Of a stretch of DNA of 64,000 nucleotides, positions 30,570 to 39,957 are shown piece after piece (the stretch's first letter is position 1; every line of letters starts with the position of its first letter). Made by a program: the position numbers and the translations under genes. The stretch comes from an uncultured bacterium. GTDB lineage: Bacteria; Bacillota; Clostridia; Lachnospirales; Lachnospiraceae. The notes under the pieces were generated by a model. The model worked only from the letters and a program-made list of their open reading frames with translations. It was not told the origin of the DNA and ran no database searches. Location of the stretch: contig CANSLJ010000003.1 in NCBI GenBank assembly GCA_947647735.1, positions 153,997 to 217,996 of the forward strand, written 5' to 3'.

Positions 30570-31508
30570 ATGGATAAGAAACAGGGTACGATAAACAGTA
30601 AAAAGCTGCTGAAAACAGTTTTCTGGGCACTGATACTGGTGCTGGTCGTGTTTTTCGGAAAGAAGCTTTTGCCGGGGGAAGATGCGGGCGGTGAGAGCGG
30701 AAACGATGTGTCAGGCAACGACGCTGCAGTGAGCTACCGGGAGAACGATGGAGACGAGATACAAAGAGGCGTGACCGTTGTGTCCTACGGCGGGGAACAG
30801 TATGTGGAAACCTCGGCTTCCGGGAGCTGGGGGCTGGGTTTCGGGGCGGACGGCAGTGAGATGCAGCCCACCGGCAGCCTGTCCAGGGAGGAACTGGCAA
30901 AATATGATGCCTGGTTTCTGGGGGATGACGGGGAGAAGATACTCTATCTGACTTTTGACTGCGGTTATGAAAACGGCAATACGGAAAATATTCTGGACGC
31001 GCTGAAAAAGCATGATGTGAAAGCCACGTTTTTTGTGGTGGGACATTTTCTGGAGAGCGCGCCGGATCTGGTAAAAAGGATGCAGGAGGAAGGACATATG
31101 GTGGGAAACCATACCTGGCACCATCCCGATATGGATACGATCGCCTCGGAGGATAAATTCCGCGAGGAACTGGAGCTGGTGGCGGATAAATATCAGGAGA
31201 TCACCGGGCAGGAGCTGAACCGCTTCTATCGGCCGCCCCAGGGGAAATATAATCTGAACAATCTGGCGATGGCGCAGAAGCTGGGCTATAAAACAATATT
31301 CTGGAGCCTTGCCTATGTGGACTGGAACGTGGATGCGCAGCCATCGAAGGAGGAGGCTTTTGCAAAACTGACCGGCAGGGTTCACCCCGGGGCCGTTGTG
31401 CTGCTGCACAACACGTCCAAAACCAACGGTGAGATTCTGGATGAACTGTTAACAAAATGGGAAGGAATGGGGTACCGTTTCGGTACTTTAGAGGATCTGA
31501 CGAAATGA
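30570..31508 (+). CDS. Polysaccharide deacetylase, PdaA-like (muramic-delta-lactam type)
   Basis: CE4 deacetylase of 312 residues with one N-terminal membrane helix (FWALILVLVVFFGKKLL) and a Gly/Asn/Asp-rich linker. Motif 1 is LTFDCGYENGNT, the DCGYEN form typical of PdaA rather than the usual DDGP; motif 2 is GNHTWHHPDM. The PdaA family makes muramic delta-lactam of spore cortex, so a sporulation role is likely but is inferred. Its stop overlaps the start of the GTPase gene (ATGA). Confidence 0.88.
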   Translation: MDKKQGTINSKKLLKTVFWALILVLVVFFGKKLLPGEDAGGESGNDVSGNDAAVSYRENDGDEIQRGVTVVSYGGEQYVETSASGSWGLGFGADGSEMQPTGSLSREELAKYDAWFLGDDGEKILYLTFDCGYENGNTENILDALKKHDVKATFFVVGHFLESAPDLVKRMQEEGHMVGNHTWHHPDMDTIASEDKFREELELVADKYQEITGQELNRFYRPPQGKYNLNNLAMAQKLGYKTIFWSLAYVDWNVDAQPSKEEAFAKLTGRVHPGAVVLLHNTSKTNGEILDELLTKWEGMGYRFGTLEDLTK

Positions 31509-34279
31509 AAAAACTCATAACAGGCATTTTGGCCCATGTGGATGCGGGTAAGACCACGCTCTCCGAGGGGCTGCTCTATCACTGCGGCATGATACGGAAA
31601 TTGGGGCGGGTGGATAACCGGGATGCCTTTTTGGATACGGAGGAACTGGAGAGAAAGCGGGGGATCACGATATTTTCCAAGCAGGCTCTTCTGCGCTATG
31701 AAGATATGGAGATCACCCTGCTCGATACGCCGGGGCATGTGGATTTTTCGGCGGAGATGGAGCGTACCCTGCAGGTGCTGGACTATGCGGTGCTGCTGAT
31801 CAGCGGCGCCGACGGCGTACAGGGCCACACAAAGACGTTATGGCGGCTTTTAAAAAAGTATGAGATCCCCGTCTTCCTGTTTTTTAACAAGATGGATCAG
31901 CCGGGGACGATGAAGGAGGCTCTGCTCTCCGAGTGCAGGGAGAAGCTGGGGGAAGGGATAGTTGACTTTTCCGGTCAAAATACGGAGGCGTTTTACGAGA
32001 ACATAGCGGTCTGTGAGGAGGCGCTTCTGGAGCGGTTTCTGGAGACGGGTAAGATCGCTCATGACGAGATCGTCAGACTGGTCGCGGAGAGAAAATTGTT
32101 TCCCTGTTTTTTCGGCTCCGCCCTTCGGATGGAAGGCGTGGAGGAACTGCTCCGGGGACTGCAGGACTATACAGCGGAGCCGTCTTATACAAAGGACGGC
32201 GTATTTGCGGCAAGGGTCTATAAGATTTCCCGTGATAAGCAGGGAAACCGATTGACTTTTTTGAAAGTGACAGGGGGAGAGCTGAAAGTCCGGGAGGAGC
32301 TGAAAGGGCAGATGCCGGGGGAGGAGAACGGTATCTGGCAGGAGAAGGTGACACAGATACGATGTTACTCAGGAGAGAAATATGATACCGTTGACGCCGC
32401 TGAGACCGGCAGTATTTATGCGGTGACAGGCCTGTCGTATACGATGCCGGGAGACGGGCTGGGGGCGGAAAAGACATCCCTGCAGCCCGTGCTGGAACCG
32501 GTACTGACTTACCGGGTCTATCTGCCGGAGGATATGCAGGCGGCCGTGGCGCTGCCGAAACTGAGGCAGCTTGAGGAGGAGGAGCCCCAGCTCCATATTC
32601 TGTGGGAAGAAAAGCTGCAGGAGATCCATGTACAGCTGATGGGGCAGGTACAGCTCGAGGTGTTGCAGAGCATGATCATGGAGCGGTTTCAGATGGCTGT
32701 CACATTCGGGCCGGGCAACATTGTCTATAAGGAGACCATCGCGGGAGCGGTGGAGGGCGTGGGGCATTTTGAACCCCTGCGCCACTATGCGGAGGTGCAG
32801 CTTCTTCTGGAACCGGGGGAGAGAGGCAGCGGCGTTCAGACAGCCGCGGACTGCAGTGAGGATATTCTGGATAAAAACTGGCAGAGGCTGGTGCTCACCC
32901 ATCTGGAGGAGAGAGAACACAGGGGTGTGTTGACCGGATCGGTCATAACGGATATCCGGATCACGCTGACCGGCGGGAGGGCACATTTAAAGCACACGGA
33001 GGGCGGAGATTTCCGGCAGGCGACATACCGGGCGGTCCGGCAGGGACTGATGGGGGCGGAATCTGTGCTGCTTGAGCCCTGGTATGAGTTTGTGCTGGAA
33101 GTGCCGGCACAGATGGCGGGCAGAGCCATGACGGATATAGAACGCAGATACGGCAGGATAACAGCGCCGGAGATCAGGGAGGATACGGCCGTTCTGCGGG
33201 GACGGGCTCCGGTGGCCTGCCTGCAGGACTATCAGATGGAAGTGACGGCCTACACAAAGGGACAGGGACATTTAAGCTGCCTGCCCGGCGGCTATGATCT
33301 CTGCCATAACACGGAGGAAGTGCTGGAGCGGACAGGCTATGACCCGGAAGCGGATCTGAATAACCCGTCTTCTTCCGTATTCTGCGCCCACGGCGCCGGG
33401 TTTTTGGTGCCCTGGTATGAGGCTCCTTCCTATATGCATGTGGAGAGCAGCAGAAAGGAACAGGAGGCGCTCTGGCAGGAGGCGGCGCGACGGCAGGAGG
33501 AGAGAAATGCCGGGCGTACATCAGGCGGGCTCAGTATAGGAACTGAGGAGGTCGACGCCATCATCGCGGGCGCCTCCCATGCAAACAGCCGTCCGGACGC
33601 CGGAAGGCGGAAGTGGAACGCGAAGAAAAAAAGTGATGCCCGGGGAAAGGGCGTTTCCGCAAAGACGCTGGAATACAGCAGGGATACAGGGCAGAAAGCA
33701 GGAAAACCGAAGCAGGAGAAGAAGGAATATCTGTTGGTGGACGGCTATAATATCATTTTTGCGTGGGACGAGCTGAAGGAGCTGTCGGAAGTGAACATTG
33801 ACGGGGCGAGGGGACGGCTTCTGGATATTCTCTGTAATTATCAGGGCATGCGGCAGTGCGAGGTGATCGTGGTATTCGACGCCTACCGGGTAAAGGGGCA
33901 CGACACGGAGATGATGGATCATCACAATATTCATGTGGTCTACACAAAAGAGGCGGAGACGGCGGACCAGTATATCGAACGTTTTTCACATGAAAACGGC
34001 AGGAAATATGAGGTCACGGTGGCGACCTCGGACGGCCTTGAACAGATCATCATACGGGGGCAGGGATGCCGCCTGCTGTCGGCGAGGGAATTGAAAAAAG
34101 AAATTGACTACTATAGTCAGAATCTGAAGGCGGATTATCTGGAAAAACAGCCTGCCGGGAAACGCTACATGCTGGAGGGACTGGAGGAGAAACTGCGCCG
34201 GGAATTGGGGGAGGAAAAGCCGGATGCGGCTTCTGGCGGTGAGCGGAACGCCTCCTCTGAAAATGTAGCCAAAATATAA
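31505..34279 (+). CDS. TetM-like translational GTPase fused to a YacP/Rae1-like NYN nuclease domain
   Basis: 924 residues. Residues 1-650 match ribosomal-protection proteins and EF-G: G1 AHVDAGKTT (10-18), G2 RGIT (52-55), G3 DTPGH (74-78) and G4 NKMD (128-131), then domains II-V. A basic, low-complexity linker (about 650-738) leads to a C-terminal NYN/PIN-like domain (741-880) beginning EYLLVDGYNIIF. Its acidic residues Asp 746, 792, 821 and 843 match the YacP/Rae1 ribosome-associated endoribonuclease. TetM is about 640 residues, so this is a true C-terminal fusion in one unbroken frame. Likely role: acts on stalled ribosomes. Drug resistance should not be assumed. Confidence 0.88.
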   Translation: MKKLITGILAHVDAGKTTLSEGLLYHCGMIRKLGRVDNRDAFLDTEELERKRGITIFSKQALLRYEDMEITLLDTPGHVDFSAEMERTLQVLDYAVLLISGADGVQGHTKTLWRLLKKYEIPVFLFFNKMDQPGTMKEALLSECREKLGEGIVDFSGQNTEAFYENIAVCEEALLERFLETGKIAHDEIVRLVAERKLFPCFFGSALRMEGVEELLRGLQDYTAEPSYTKDGVFAARVYKISRDKQGNRLTFLKVTGGELKVREELKGQMPGEENGIWQEKVTQIRCYSGEKYDTVDAAETGSIYAVTGLSYTMPGDGLGAEKTSLQPVLEPVLTYRVYLPEDMQAAVALPKLRQLEEEEPQLHILWEEKLQEIHVQLMGQVQLEVLQSMIMERFQMAVTFGPGNIVYKETIAGAVEGVGHFEPLRHYAEVQLLLEPGERGSGVQTAADCSEDILDKNWQRLVLTHLEEREHRGVLTGSVITDIRITLTGGRAHLKHTEGGDFRQATYRAVRQGLMGAESVLLEPWYEFVLEVPAQMAGRAMTDIERRYGRITAPEIREDTAVLRGRAPVACLQDYQMEVTAYTKGQGHLSCLPGGYDLCHNTEEVLERTGYDPEADLNNPSSSVFCAHGAGFLVPWYEAPSYMHVESSRKEQEALWQEAARRQEERNAGRTSGGLSIGTEEVDAIIAGASHANSRPDAGRRKWNAKKKSDARGKGVSAKTLEYSRDTGQKAGKPKQEKKEYLLVDGYNIIFAWDELKELSEVNIDGARGRLLDILCNYQGMRQCEVIVVFDAYRVKGHDTEMMDHHNIHVVYTKEAETADQYIERFSHENGRKYEVTVATSDGLEQIIIRGQGCRLLSARELKKEIDYYSQNLKADYLEKQPAGKRYMLEGLEEKLRRELGEEKPDAASGGERNASSENVAKI

Positions 34280-37110: not shown

Positions 37111-37352
37111 GATAGTATTCTCCTTTTGCTTGTATTTTTGCTGCATGATGCTGGCGGCGATCATCAGATGGATGATATGCCGGCAGGAATGTCTGCATTT
37201 GGGGTATAACCCACAGGGACAGTATAACGCAGATCCACAGGAAAAAGCAAATGCAAAATGACAGAAAAATAGTCAGAATTTTCTGAAAATTCTAAAATAA
37301 AATGCTTTAAAATAAAAGAATAAAAAAATTTGAATTTTTTTGAAAAAATGTA

Positions 37353-37380
37353 TTGACAATTAAAAAGGAGGTGATATAAT
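37353..37380 (+). promoter_or_regulatory. Near-consensus sigma-A promoter of the repeat transcript
   Basis: TTGACA at 37353-37358 and TATAAT at 37375-37380 with a 16-base spacer. About 90 bases of A/T tracts (37260-37350) upstream resemble an UP element. This is the strongest-looking promoter in the window. Confidence 0.85.
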
Positions 37381-37416
37381 AAGAACATAAACAAACAGCG
37401 AGAAGAAAAAAGAAAA

Positions 37417-38151
37417 GGTGGTACAGTCCAATGAGAAGGTAAATTTTAACCTGAATCATATTTAAGCAAAGGTGGTAAAAGCCAATGGACAGGTAAAGAA
37501 AAACCTAAAAGAAAATAAGTTAAAAGAGGTACAGACCAATGGGCTGAGAAGAAGAAACCCAAAGAAAAAATAAGATGAAAGAGGTAAGGGCCAATGGACA
37601 AGTAAAGTTCAAAACCCAGATTGAAAGTAGTAAAGTGAGAAAAGAGATAAAATAAAACATGATAAGGTGGTAGAGACCAATGGACCATTAAAAAAGAATT
37701 CAAAATCAGAATATAACGAAGGCGGTACGAACCAATGGGTGATATAGTTTAACAGAAAAGCCTGAAAAGCAAGTTGCCAGGGAGATAAATGGGGAATATC
37801 GAAATCGAGATATAAGGATAGGAGAATACGATAAAGCCGGATGAGAGATCAGAAGGTAATTCAGAAATGAATAATGGTACGGCGGTGAACACCGATGAAT
37901 ATATAAATCATGAAATCTAAGTAAAGGAGGTACGGGCCACCTAAAACATAAACCTTAACCATAAAAAGAATAAGGAACCAGAAACAGACTGAAGCAGACA
38001 AGTACATCTAAAAAGGTAACGAAATAATAGAGAGAAAAAACGTTACAGTACACAGGTACAAAAATAGAGAGAATGGAAAGAATGCAGAAGGCCAAAATTT
38101 AATATAGATTGTCTGAAAACGGAGGTTGAACCATTGGACAGCATAGTTTAA
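37417..38151 (+). repeat. Nine-copy SD-hairpin-CCAATGG repeat
   Basis: Copies start near 37417, 37471, 37525, 37580, 37666, 37721, 37881, 37926 and 38121; four of the eight steps are 54-55 bases. Within each copy GGT (or GG) can pair with ACC (or CC) across a short loop. One copy keeps the pairing with changed bases (CGGTGAACACCG, near 37882). The copy at 37926 has lost its ATG. Start codons are at 37431, 37485, 37539, 37594, 37680, 37735, 37895 and 38134 (TTG). Confidence 0.8.
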
Positions 38152-38190
38152 AAGAGGGTGTTGATCGAGAAAGATTGATACCCTCTTTTT
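38151..38190 (+). terminator. Strong terminator of the repeat transcript
   Basis: Sixteen-pair stem (38151-38166 with 38173-38188, three G-U pairs), 6-base loop, ending in a T-run. The last minimal cistron stops at its first base pair. Confidence 0.9.
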
Positions 38191-38325
38191 ATGCGTCCTC
38201 AAACTTTTTTCATTTAGAGGGCTTTTTATGTAGATATTTGTAGGTAAATACGGTATAATATCGCTAGATGTCGGTGGTTTTATAGAGAACATAAACAATA
38301 AGTAATATAGAAAAATGAGGATATT

Positions 38326-39957
38326 ATGAAGAAAGACAAAGCAAAAAAGGCCGGAAAGCGGGAAAAGGAATATAAGAAGAAACGTTTCTTTGCAATGGAT
38401 GAAGATTACGAGGATGATGAAGATTACGAAGATGATGAAGACTATGACGAAGATGATGAAGACTATGACGATGATGAGGACGACGATGATGATGAAGATG
38501 ACGATGAAGAAATAGAGGATGACGAAGACGAAGAAGATATAGACGACGAAGAAATAGAAGACGAAGAAGACGATGAGGATGATAGCAGATGGAACAGCGT
38601 GGAAGCCAGAAGAGCGCGCCGGCGTGCCAGGAGGGTTAGAAATCAGATTCTTGCGTATCTGGTGATCGTCATACTGGTGATAGGTGCAATCGGTGGCTGT
38701 TTTATAGGTGGAAGAAAAGTTGTTCAGAAGTTTCAGGATAATAAGCAGCAAAAAGAATTGGATGAGCAGTTTAAGGCGCTGCAGGAGTCAGAGGAGGAAC
38801 CGGTTATAGATTTGGAAAATAACGAAGAGAGTGAGAATCAGGTTGCGGAACCAGCACTTAGCCCTCTGGATGAGATTGTTACTGCAAGGATTACAGAGAT
38901 GCCTTTGGAAGATAAAGTGGCGGCATTATTTATGGTGACACCGGAGGAACTCACAGGAGTGCCAAGTGTAACAAAAGCGGGGAATACTACAAAAGAGGCT
39001 CTTACAAGGTATAAAGTAGGCGGGCTCGTATATACGGAAAGCAATATTACGGGCGCTGATCAGTTGAAAGAACTTTTATCCAATACAGCCTTGATCGATC
39101 AGACATTGTTTTTAGCAGTGGCGGAGGAAGGCGGAGAAAGCTCCGTTGTAGCATCCAAACTTTCTGTGACGGAAGTGCCGGATATGGCATCGGTGAGCGG
39201 TACAGACGGTGCACATGAGGCTGGCAGCAATATAGGGGCTTATCTTGCAGAATATGGATTTAATTTGAATTTGGCACCGGTAGCGGATGTGAAAATATCA
39301 GAGGAGAGTATTCTCGGAAACCGAAGTTTTGGCTCTGACCCGGCTCAGGTGGGAGAGATGGCGGCTGCCTATATAAGCGGGCTGACAGAGATGGGCGTCA
39401 GTGCCTGTGTGAAAACTTTCCCGGGATTGGGCGGTGTTACAAAGTCTACGGCGGAAGGAATGGCTGATACACAACGAAGCCAGAGCGATATGGAGGCAGC
39501 AGAATTTTTGGCATATCAGGCGGCTCTTTCAGCGGGCAGTGAGTTTGTTATGGTAGGGACAATGTCGGCACCGGGCGTGACAGGGGATAATACGCCTTGT
39601 TGTCTGTCAACAGCGGCAGTGGGATTGCTTCGAAATAATCTGGGGTATGACGGGGTTGTCATTACCGGGGCTTTAAATGAGACAGCAGTCACTGACTATT
39701 ATACTTCTGCGGAGGCGGCGGAAAAGGCTATACGTGCAGGAGTTGATATGATCTATATGCCGGAGAATTTTGAGGAAGCCTATGCGGGACTTCTGCAGTC
39801 AGTACAGAGCGGTGCACTGGAAGAGAGTCGCATTGATGAATCGCTGCTTCGGATCTATCGTGTAAAGTATAAGGACAAAGTCAGTGGTGTGCTTGGGACT
39901 GAAGATGCAGGTATGGAGGAGATGCCTGAAGGGGAAGAAATACCTGTGGAGCAGTAG
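38326..39957 (+). CDS. Membrane protein with acidic cytoplasmic tail and degenerate GH3 (NagZ-like) domain
   Basis: 543 residues. A Lys-rich start is followed by about 60 residues that are almost all Asp and Glu (about 25-90), one transmembrane helix (about 106-128) and an external GH3-like domain (185-525). The Firmicutes NagZ nucleophile motif TDALNM is TGALNE here (Gly 448 in place of Asp). The KHFPGHG motif is KTFPGLG (363-369) and the following Asp-Ser-His is absent. The fold signature is otherwise clear (LAPVADV, NRSFGSDP), so it is probably a non-catalytic pseudoenzyme that binds cell-wall sugar. The acidic tail is encoded by GAY/GAR repeats. Confidence 0.82.
   Translation: MKKDKAKKAGKREKEYKKKRFFAMDEDYEDDEDYEDDEDYDEDDEDYDDDEDDDDDEDDDEEIEDDEDEEDIDDEEIEDEEDDEDDSRWNSVEARRARRRARRVRNQILAYLVIVILVIGAIGGCFIGGRKVVQKFQDNKQQKELDEQFKALQESEEEPVIDLENNEESENQVAEPALSPLDEIVTARITEMPLEDKVAALFMVTPEELTGVPSVTKAGNTTKEALTRYKVGGLVYTESNITGADQLKELLSNTALIDQTLFLAVAEEGGESSVVASKLSVTEVPDMASVSGTDGAHEAGSNIGAYLAEYGFNLNLAPVADVKISEESILGNRSFGSDPAQVGEMAAAYISGLTEMGVSACVKTFPGLGGVTKSTAEGMADTQRSQSDMEAAEFLAYQAALSAGSEFVMVGTMSAPGVTGDNTPCCLSTAAVGLLRNNLGYDGVVITGALNETAVTDYYTSAEAAEKAIRAGVDMIYMPENFEEAYAGLLQSVQSGALEESRIDESLLRIYRVKYKDKVSGVLGTEDAGMEEMPEGEEIPVEQ

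Follow-up and report, generated by a model that had tools for sequence, protein, structure and literature searches.

6S RNA traps RNA polymerase, and the dual-function small RNAs, such as SgrS and RNAIII, have a promoter and a terminator of their own and carry a short ORF. As described in PMC8708949, minigenes with a strong Shine-Dalgarno (SD) sequence allow re-initiation without dissociation, and those that end in UAA show faster drop-off. At the LEE4 mRNA, according to the same account, ribosome binding at the SD of a mini-ORF suffices for shielding, and the over-produced minigene studied there was non-toxic. In E. coli, ribosomes are paused or destabilised by acidic residues early in the chain, and two such residues alone are described as insufficient (PMC11282234). 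In Clostridium phytofermentans, a novel transcript downstream of cphy2658, with the strongest start site on cellulose and corn stover, was suggested to be non-coding (PMC5171806).

The locus compared here with these systems lies in the window, the whole stretch of 64,000 nucleotides of Lachnospiraceae DNA that was analysed. Positions 37353-38190 (838 bases) contain a candidate RNA gene in which an extended -10 promoter, nine modules and a terminator follow one another (Table 1), and this layout looks like that of a terminated stand-alone RNA gene. The near-consensus promoter and the terminator that an earlier note had recognised in this DNA were both recovered. Promoter-like sites in the region number 4, against 5.0 in shuffles, and the sole perfect one is that at 37353-37380. 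The terminator is absent from the output of a simple terminator scan and was picked up by an inverted-repeat search and by a second scan. The ORF list contains no plus-strand ORF of at least 60 amino acids inside 37387-38150.

Covariance models of Rfam 15, applied at the gathering threshold, detected tRNA alone in the window and nothing at the locus; over 37300-38300 there was one meaningless weak match (E 3.6). The locus was rejected as 6S RNA, since it has no RF00013 match and the genome's own 6S lies at G000:C31:27147-27350, and as tmRNA, since it has no tRNA-like ends or tag frame. A search of the open-licence literature for Lachnospiraceae RNA motifs or short-ORF sRNAs, structured-RNA surveys, ribosome decoys and micro-ORFs returned no report like it. 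The statement that no described family has this layout thus held within Rfam and that literature; the unnamed candidates of surveys, for example that of PMC8040213, could include this RNA.

Table 1. Features of the candidate RNA gene and the gene that follows it. Coordinates are positions in the window; the fourth column gives the first base of the start codon.
Feature	Coordinates	Strand	Start	Details
Promoter, perfect -35 and extended -10	37353..37380	+		TTGACA-16-TATAAT, TG before the -10; 12/12 matches
Module 1	37417..37442	+	37431	GGTGGT...ATG AGA AGG TAA (MRR); relatives keep ATG and stop as MRK, MRR, MRS
Module 2	37471..37496	+	37485	ATG GAC AGG TAA (MDR)
Module 3	37525..37547	+	37539	AGAGGT...ATG GGC TGA (MG)
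Module 4	37580..37605	+	37594	AGAGGT...ATG GAC AAG TAA (MDK); L003 has a GTG start
Module 5	37666..37691	+	37680	ATG GAC CAT TAA (MDH; relatives MGH)
Module 6	37721..37752	+	37735	ATG GGT GAT ATA GTT TAA (MGDIV); not retained in the genus's other genomes
Module 7	37881..37906	+	37895	CGGT/ACCG pair, ATG AAT ATA TAA (MNI); some relatives without ATG
Start-less module	37915..37951	+		ATCTAAGTAAAGGAGGTACGGGCCACCTAAAACATAA; nine-base SD-like AAAGGAGGT, CCT at the start-codon position, UAA at +10; strong sequence conservation
Clade-specific helix	38002..38059	+		GUAC...GUAACG/CGUUAC...GUAC...GUAC; pairing-requiring search, 14/173 loci
Terminal micro-ORF	38121..38151	+	38134	GGAGGT...TTG GAC AGC ATA GTT TAA, putative (f)M-D-S-I-V; stop at the terminator base
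Intrinsic terminator	38150..38189	+		Inverted repeat, arms 38150-38166 / 38173-38189, T-rich 3' arm
GH3-family protein (PF00933)	38326..39957	+		Acidic N-terminal tail, hydrophobic membrane-anchor-like segment

Seven of the nine modules are SD-ATG modules, one (the copy at 37923) has no start codon, and the terminal one starts with TTG. All eight frames are closed by a stop, in agreement with the short start-stop frames that had been noted in eight copies, and the four steps of 54-55 nt between copies were likewise found. The motif described as nine copies of GGNGGT is present in only seven of the nine; the other two read AGAGGT. The hairpin of GGT and ACC attributed to the copies was not borne out. 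When eight module stretches were folded, with module 4 left out, the seven start-codon copies tested of the eight gave z scores of -0.55 to +0.43 against dinucleotide shuffles, and the start-less copy gave -0.60, no better than its shuffles. The hairpins proposed for the modules were rejected on these eight folds. The paired change CGGT/ACCG in module 7 stood in part: the pairing is kept in most genomes of the genus, and the ATG is lost in some.

The locus is present in all nine genomes of the window's genus, its own included, although one match of the DNA search ends at a contig edge. The genus alignment shows the 3' end and the start-less module conserved together with the promoter and the first AUG modules; the number of start-codon modules ahead of the terminal one ranges from 2 to 7 per genome, and their spacing drifts. 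The earlier note had held that loss of motif, spacing and start-stop pairs in relatives would count against its proposal; the start-stop frames are kept, the spacing and copy number are not, and the module at 37735 is not retained. The 38 genus modules with a start codon comprise 34 non-terminal and 4 terminal ones. Thirty-three of the 34 stop after one or two sense codons, the exception being module 6 of the window with four, and the four terminal ORFs stop after four. An in-frame stop occurs within three sense codons in 33 of the 38; the shifted frames give 5 and 6. This comparison tests stops and not starts, because the module script picks modules that bear a start codon. Module 3 has TGA at codon 3 in three genomes, without TAA at codon 4, which hints, in a single orthologous module, at a need for a stop and not for a fixed UAA. 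These patterns support selection on the initiation signal together with an early stop. The locus is almost certainly not what frameshifts have left of a repetitive protein gene: its imperfect tandem repeats, 54-55 nt long, would suit such an origin, but the same short frames persist in relatives while spacing, copy number and middle change, and in the window the interior of the locus has no plus-strand ORF of the length given above.

Beyond the genus, a search with the 3' part of the locus matched 28 of 200 family genomes, mostly on the start-less module or the 3' end, and at least three of these matches (L036, L038, L040) are probably due to chance. R1, a model built on the start-less module, matched 124 of 299 family genomes, in 123 of 298 genera, at a cut-off of E up to 0.01, at which about three chance matches are expected among the 299 genomes. 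Within the class R1 matched 6 of 391 genomes, five of them from the same family, and within the order 25 of 295, two of them, L243 and L244, from outside the family. Among the weak matches from other families, L243 (family f4) has the layout; L244 and L245 have none under the rule applied. A pattern scan of named genomes yielded at least 120 loci, mostly labelled as Lachnospiraceae genera or broader Clostridia. Among the matches listed, L087, L090 and L129 carry the exact module pattern under the labels Planctomycetota, Bacillus and Paenibacillaceae. L090 and L129 also have a terminal ORF, so those bins may be mislabelled; L087, which has none, may be a chance match.

A model of the 3' end (R2) was applied to 28 R1-negative genomes, in which five of the seven strong loci read carry modules or a promoter plus terminal ORF. 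R2 gave matches in 20 of these 28 genomes and in 9 of 10 R1-positive ones, landing on the R1 place in 7 of the 10. Because R2 is unspecific at low scores, prevalence is given from R1, as a lower bound. The comparative set comprises 178 loci, all selected for the start-less module and distinct by sequence and not by species, so that close relatives recur. A promoter with at least 11 of 12 consensus matches lies within 400 nt upstream of the start-less module in 142 of 169 loci (12/12 in 90), compared with 2 of 169 shuffled sequences and 10 of 158 stretches of 400 nt downstream. Such near-consensus promoters would fit a strongly transcribed gene. For the Lachnospiraceae the comparison delineates a predicted family of RNA genes that combine a near-consensus promoter, the start-less module with its nine-base SD-like sequence, sometimes SD-AUG-stop modules, and a 3' ORF. 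That this conserved unit represents an undescribed, family-wide RNA gene built from putative translation-initiation modules is well supported by the sequences.

The start-less module and the 3' micro-ORF are what the other genera share. Start-less copies selected by CCACC or CCGCC have TAA at +10 in 122 of 191 cases, TAG in 10 and TGA in 1, and no standard initiation is to be expected at their CCN. Either the module is a converted AUG module or its UAA has a role of its own. Since the UAA is kept at +10 without a start codon, the conserved stops may in part reflect a property of the RNA itself; this weakens the start-stop reading of the internal modules without removing it, and leaves the terminal ORF unaffected. 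The start-less module also bears on a sponge for an RNA-binding protein such as CsrA. Its loop is ACGGA-like, which we take to resemble the CsrA motif; purine motifs are repeated along the RNA, and the genome encodes CsrA. This explanation is nonetheless very improbable, though a different protein may be the partner: CsrA is encoded by 59 of the 124 genomes with the RNA and by 95 of the 175 without it (p 0.29, with some R1-negative genomes carrying the RNA), and GGA is missing from several modules (AUGAGA, AUGGGC). A sponge of the CsrB/RsmZ type was rejected, as there is neither co-occurrence with CsrA nor repeated GGA in stable hairpin loops.

The terminal micro-ORF was defined by two rules. 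Under the first, an SD-preceded start with a stop within 12 nt of the terminator stem base, it occurs in 99 of the 104 loci used, compared with 298 of 2080 shuffles; the other loci of the 178 have no terminator by that rule. Under the second, combined rule it occurs in 139 of 175 loci, compared with 4 of 175 shuffled sequences and 2 of 119 stretches taken from elsewhere. Either rule identifies it in 142 of 178 loci, where it takes 119 distinct forms of 5-10 codons; chance may account for a few of these loci, and of the 36 loci without an ORF by both rules several show one by eye. From the same starts, the first stop falls at the terminator in 21 of 99 cases in frame +1 and in 5 of 99 in frame +2; frame 0 has 99 of 99 by selection of the ORFs, so that the informative contrast is with the shifted frames. 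Over the 142 loci the start codon is ATG in 90, TTG in 48 and GTG in 4, and the stop is TAA in 63, TAG in 41 and TGA in 38.

Changes within the terminal ORF are mostly synonymous. The 66 pairs of ORFs that differ once in their sense codons comprise 47 synonymous and 19 other differences, against an expected synonymous share of 0.21; as pairs are not independent, each ORF was also used only once, which gives about 11.5 synonymous to 8.9 other differences (p ~8e-4). Of the 119 distinct ORFs, 114 contain D or E (75 of them two or more acidic residues) and 17 contain K or R. Lysine codons and many arginine codons are equally purine-rich, yet K and R are scarce. The swaps of start and stop codons, the mostly synonymous change and the acidic content suggest that the terminal ORF is probably translated, its codon evolution being the strongest evidence. 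Selection on an initiation signal and not on a protein, as first proposed, applies to the initiation signal and early stop; the second half fails for the terminal copy, because the 3' micro-ORF shows amino-acid-level constraint in other genera.

A gene for a functional acidic peptide of 5-10 residues, with everything upstream of the terminal ORF serving as a regulatory leader, would account for the synonymous bias and the acidic composition, as well as for D as the second residue in 83 of the 119 distinct ORFs. Such a gene is distinctly unlikely, given how widely the peptides vary in sequence and length (MDSIV, MIEISK, LDVENVV and LDSEQ are examples). The stop is moreover tied to the terminator and not to the length of the peptide, and the internal modules encode unrelated dipeptides and tripeptides.

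Because its stop reaches to the stem base or into it, the terminal ORF could instead, by being translated, govern read-through of the terminator into a downstream gene, here that of the GH3-family protein. This protein has a lysine-rich start and a long Asp/Glu tract, followed by the hydrophobic segment. Of 160 loci for which a downstream gene was identified, 28 have a related GH3 protein in first place on the same strand; the window's genus accounts for 8 of these. The other 132 have a different first gene, which in 23 is a convergent radical-SAM gene. (Neighbour groups are single-linkage BLAST clusters, of which four members each were checked with Pfam; four other GH3 members are PF00933.) No general neighbour gene exists among the 160 loci, and the conserved gene after the terminator that characterises leader-peptide attenuators was not found. 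Attenuation of one particular gene thus cannot explain the family. A promoter-like site at 38231-38259 ahead of the GH3 gene also speaks against attenuation, though such sites are no commoner in the region than in shuffles; overall this alternative is improbable. Elsewhere in the window, 31457-34279 encodes a protein of 940 aa in which an EF-G-like translation GTPase is fused to a C-terminal YacP-like NYN domain.

Internal start-stop modules are sparse outside the genus. With the window's genus and L107 left out, 22 of 140 loci contain candidate SD-CC-ATG modules, 26 in all. Fifteen of the 26 stop within two sense codons, compared with 2 and 2 in the shifted frames; 13 of these read MGS, MQT, MHT, MGT, MKT, MRT, MKS, MQK, MND, MKI or MG, and the other 2 are bare ATG-stop pairs with no clear module around them. 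In the ladder, the window's genus has evidently amplified an initiation module of which other genera have few copies, and because most loci beyond the genus have no internal AUG module, the ladder is not needed for the core function of the family. The middle region differs by clade: its commonest 8-mer that is not A-rich is present in 22 of 142 loci, and a pairing segment common to the family was thus not found. Most of the loci with the helix at 38002-38059 belong to the window's genus; the helix shows paired changes (GCAGCG/CGUUGC, GUAGUG/CACUAC) in a few genera and was absent from 125 control stretches. A structured middle common to the family was rejected, as only this helix and other clade-specific motifs were found. 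The motif UGACGAGAAAG occurs in the middle of L018, L023, L028, L030, L031 and L042 and in the terminator loops of L120 and L165; across clades it recurs in the middle, the 5' part and the terminator loops.

Length and module number bear on a further explanation, in which ribosomes on the mini-ORFs would shield a long, untranslated purine-rich RNA from RNases or Rho while the function resides in another segment, for example by pairing with mRNA. There is a precedent in the LEE4 mRNA, which ribosome binding at a six-codon mini-ORF protects from RNase E (PMC8708949). RNAs of the family span 170 to 839 nt (median 372 nt, n=114), which makes the window RNA, with about 800 nt, one of the longest, and in no genus were more modules seen than in its own; a long RNA would, on this explanation, need more guards. 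We consider guarding of this kind rather unlikely. The start-less module cannot initiate, the clade-variable middle offers no common segment for pairing, and the synonymous bias of the terminal ORF is not required for guarding.

Start signals that open frames of two to ten codons point to a ribosome-engaging RNA and not to an ordinary protein gene. We favour, with a probability of roughly 0.4, an RNA that works by engaging ribosomes through abortive mini-initiations, with one ribosome parked against the terminator. In 139 loci the start codon and the terminator stem base are a median of 17 nt apart. The median stem comprises 17 pairs, and folds of the 60 nt that begin at its base have a median minimum free energy of -24.3 kcal/mol. 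An initiating ribosome covers about 15-17 nt beyond the start codon. The start-to-stem distance is thus close to a ribosome footprint, and an initiating ribosome would sit flush against the hairpin, which is the basis of the parking idea.

Under this ribosome-engaging reading, the purine-rich modules would bind 30S subunits, and ribosomes on three-codon frames would terminate or drop off almost unmoved and may re-initiate at the same site. A ribosome initiating on the terminal ORF would have its front edge approximately at the base of the stable terminator hairpin, and to reach the terminal stop it would need to unwind much of that hairpin. The early acidic nascent chain and the hairpin would tend to hold it at the 3' end of the RNA, although many terminal ORFs have a single acidic residue, fewer than the motifs described in PMC11282234. 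What results would be a regulatory RNA loaded with ribosomes, able to buffer initiation capacity or to report it, and the ladder would be a form with more sites. A search for the 3' tail of 16S rRNA found no match in the genome's own assembly, from which rRNA is perhaps missing, and the modules are assumed to pair with the anti-SD as in bacteria generally. A more specific proposal sees here an equivalent of 6S RNA on the side of translation: by mimicking initiation sites this dedicated RNA would hold 30S subunits or initiating ribosomes, no protein being made, and it would report the supply of free ribosomes through parking on the terminal micro-ORF; this proposal is unlikely.

Whatever its function, over 100 genera carry this RNA gene candidate, which lies outside Rfam 15. 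If the ribosome-engaging reading is correct, gut bacteria of a major family possess an undescribed RNA that conserves ribosome-initiation signals, and the ORFs of this RNA are among the shortest with evidence of codon-level selection. The buffering of ribosomes by an RNA and the minimal length of a selected ORF would then become testable in cultured Lachnospiraceae.

Among the described systems, the minigenes treated in PMC8708949 (axe-txe mg2, the LEE1/LEE4 mini-ORFs, ycbK) have the same combination of SD, start, and stop within 2-6 codons. An SD, a start and a stop within a few codons are found both in the modules and in the terminal ORF, and in both systems ribosome occupancy and not the product is likely the point. 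The minigenes described there act in cis in mRNA leaders, whereas here the signals are repeated on an RNA with its own terminator and end in a micro-ORF at that terminator. The main ORF downstream on the same mRNA would be missing: a terminator follows, with no general downstream gene. Leader peptides of the IRD/EttA type, for example MgtL, share the short ORFs and early acidic residues, by which ribosomes could be paused or made to abort (PMC11282234); compared with those described there, the present loci have no general downstream gene, proline is rare, and the ORF is placed where a complete transcript has its 3' end. The cphy2658 transcript, very strongly initiated as the present RNA would be, comes from a member of the Lachnospiraceae (PMC5171806), a likeness by description and not by sequence, the C. 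phytofermentans genome being absent from the locus set. Should the ribosome-decoy reading prove correct, 6S RNA would be alike in acting as decoy for a core machine, although the machine is a different one. The dual-function small RNAs are alike in having a promoter, a terminator and a short ORF, and the promoter, terminator and codon evolution seen here would fit that class; the difference is that the present RNA has an ORF of 5-10 codons at its 3' end, plus start-stop modules.
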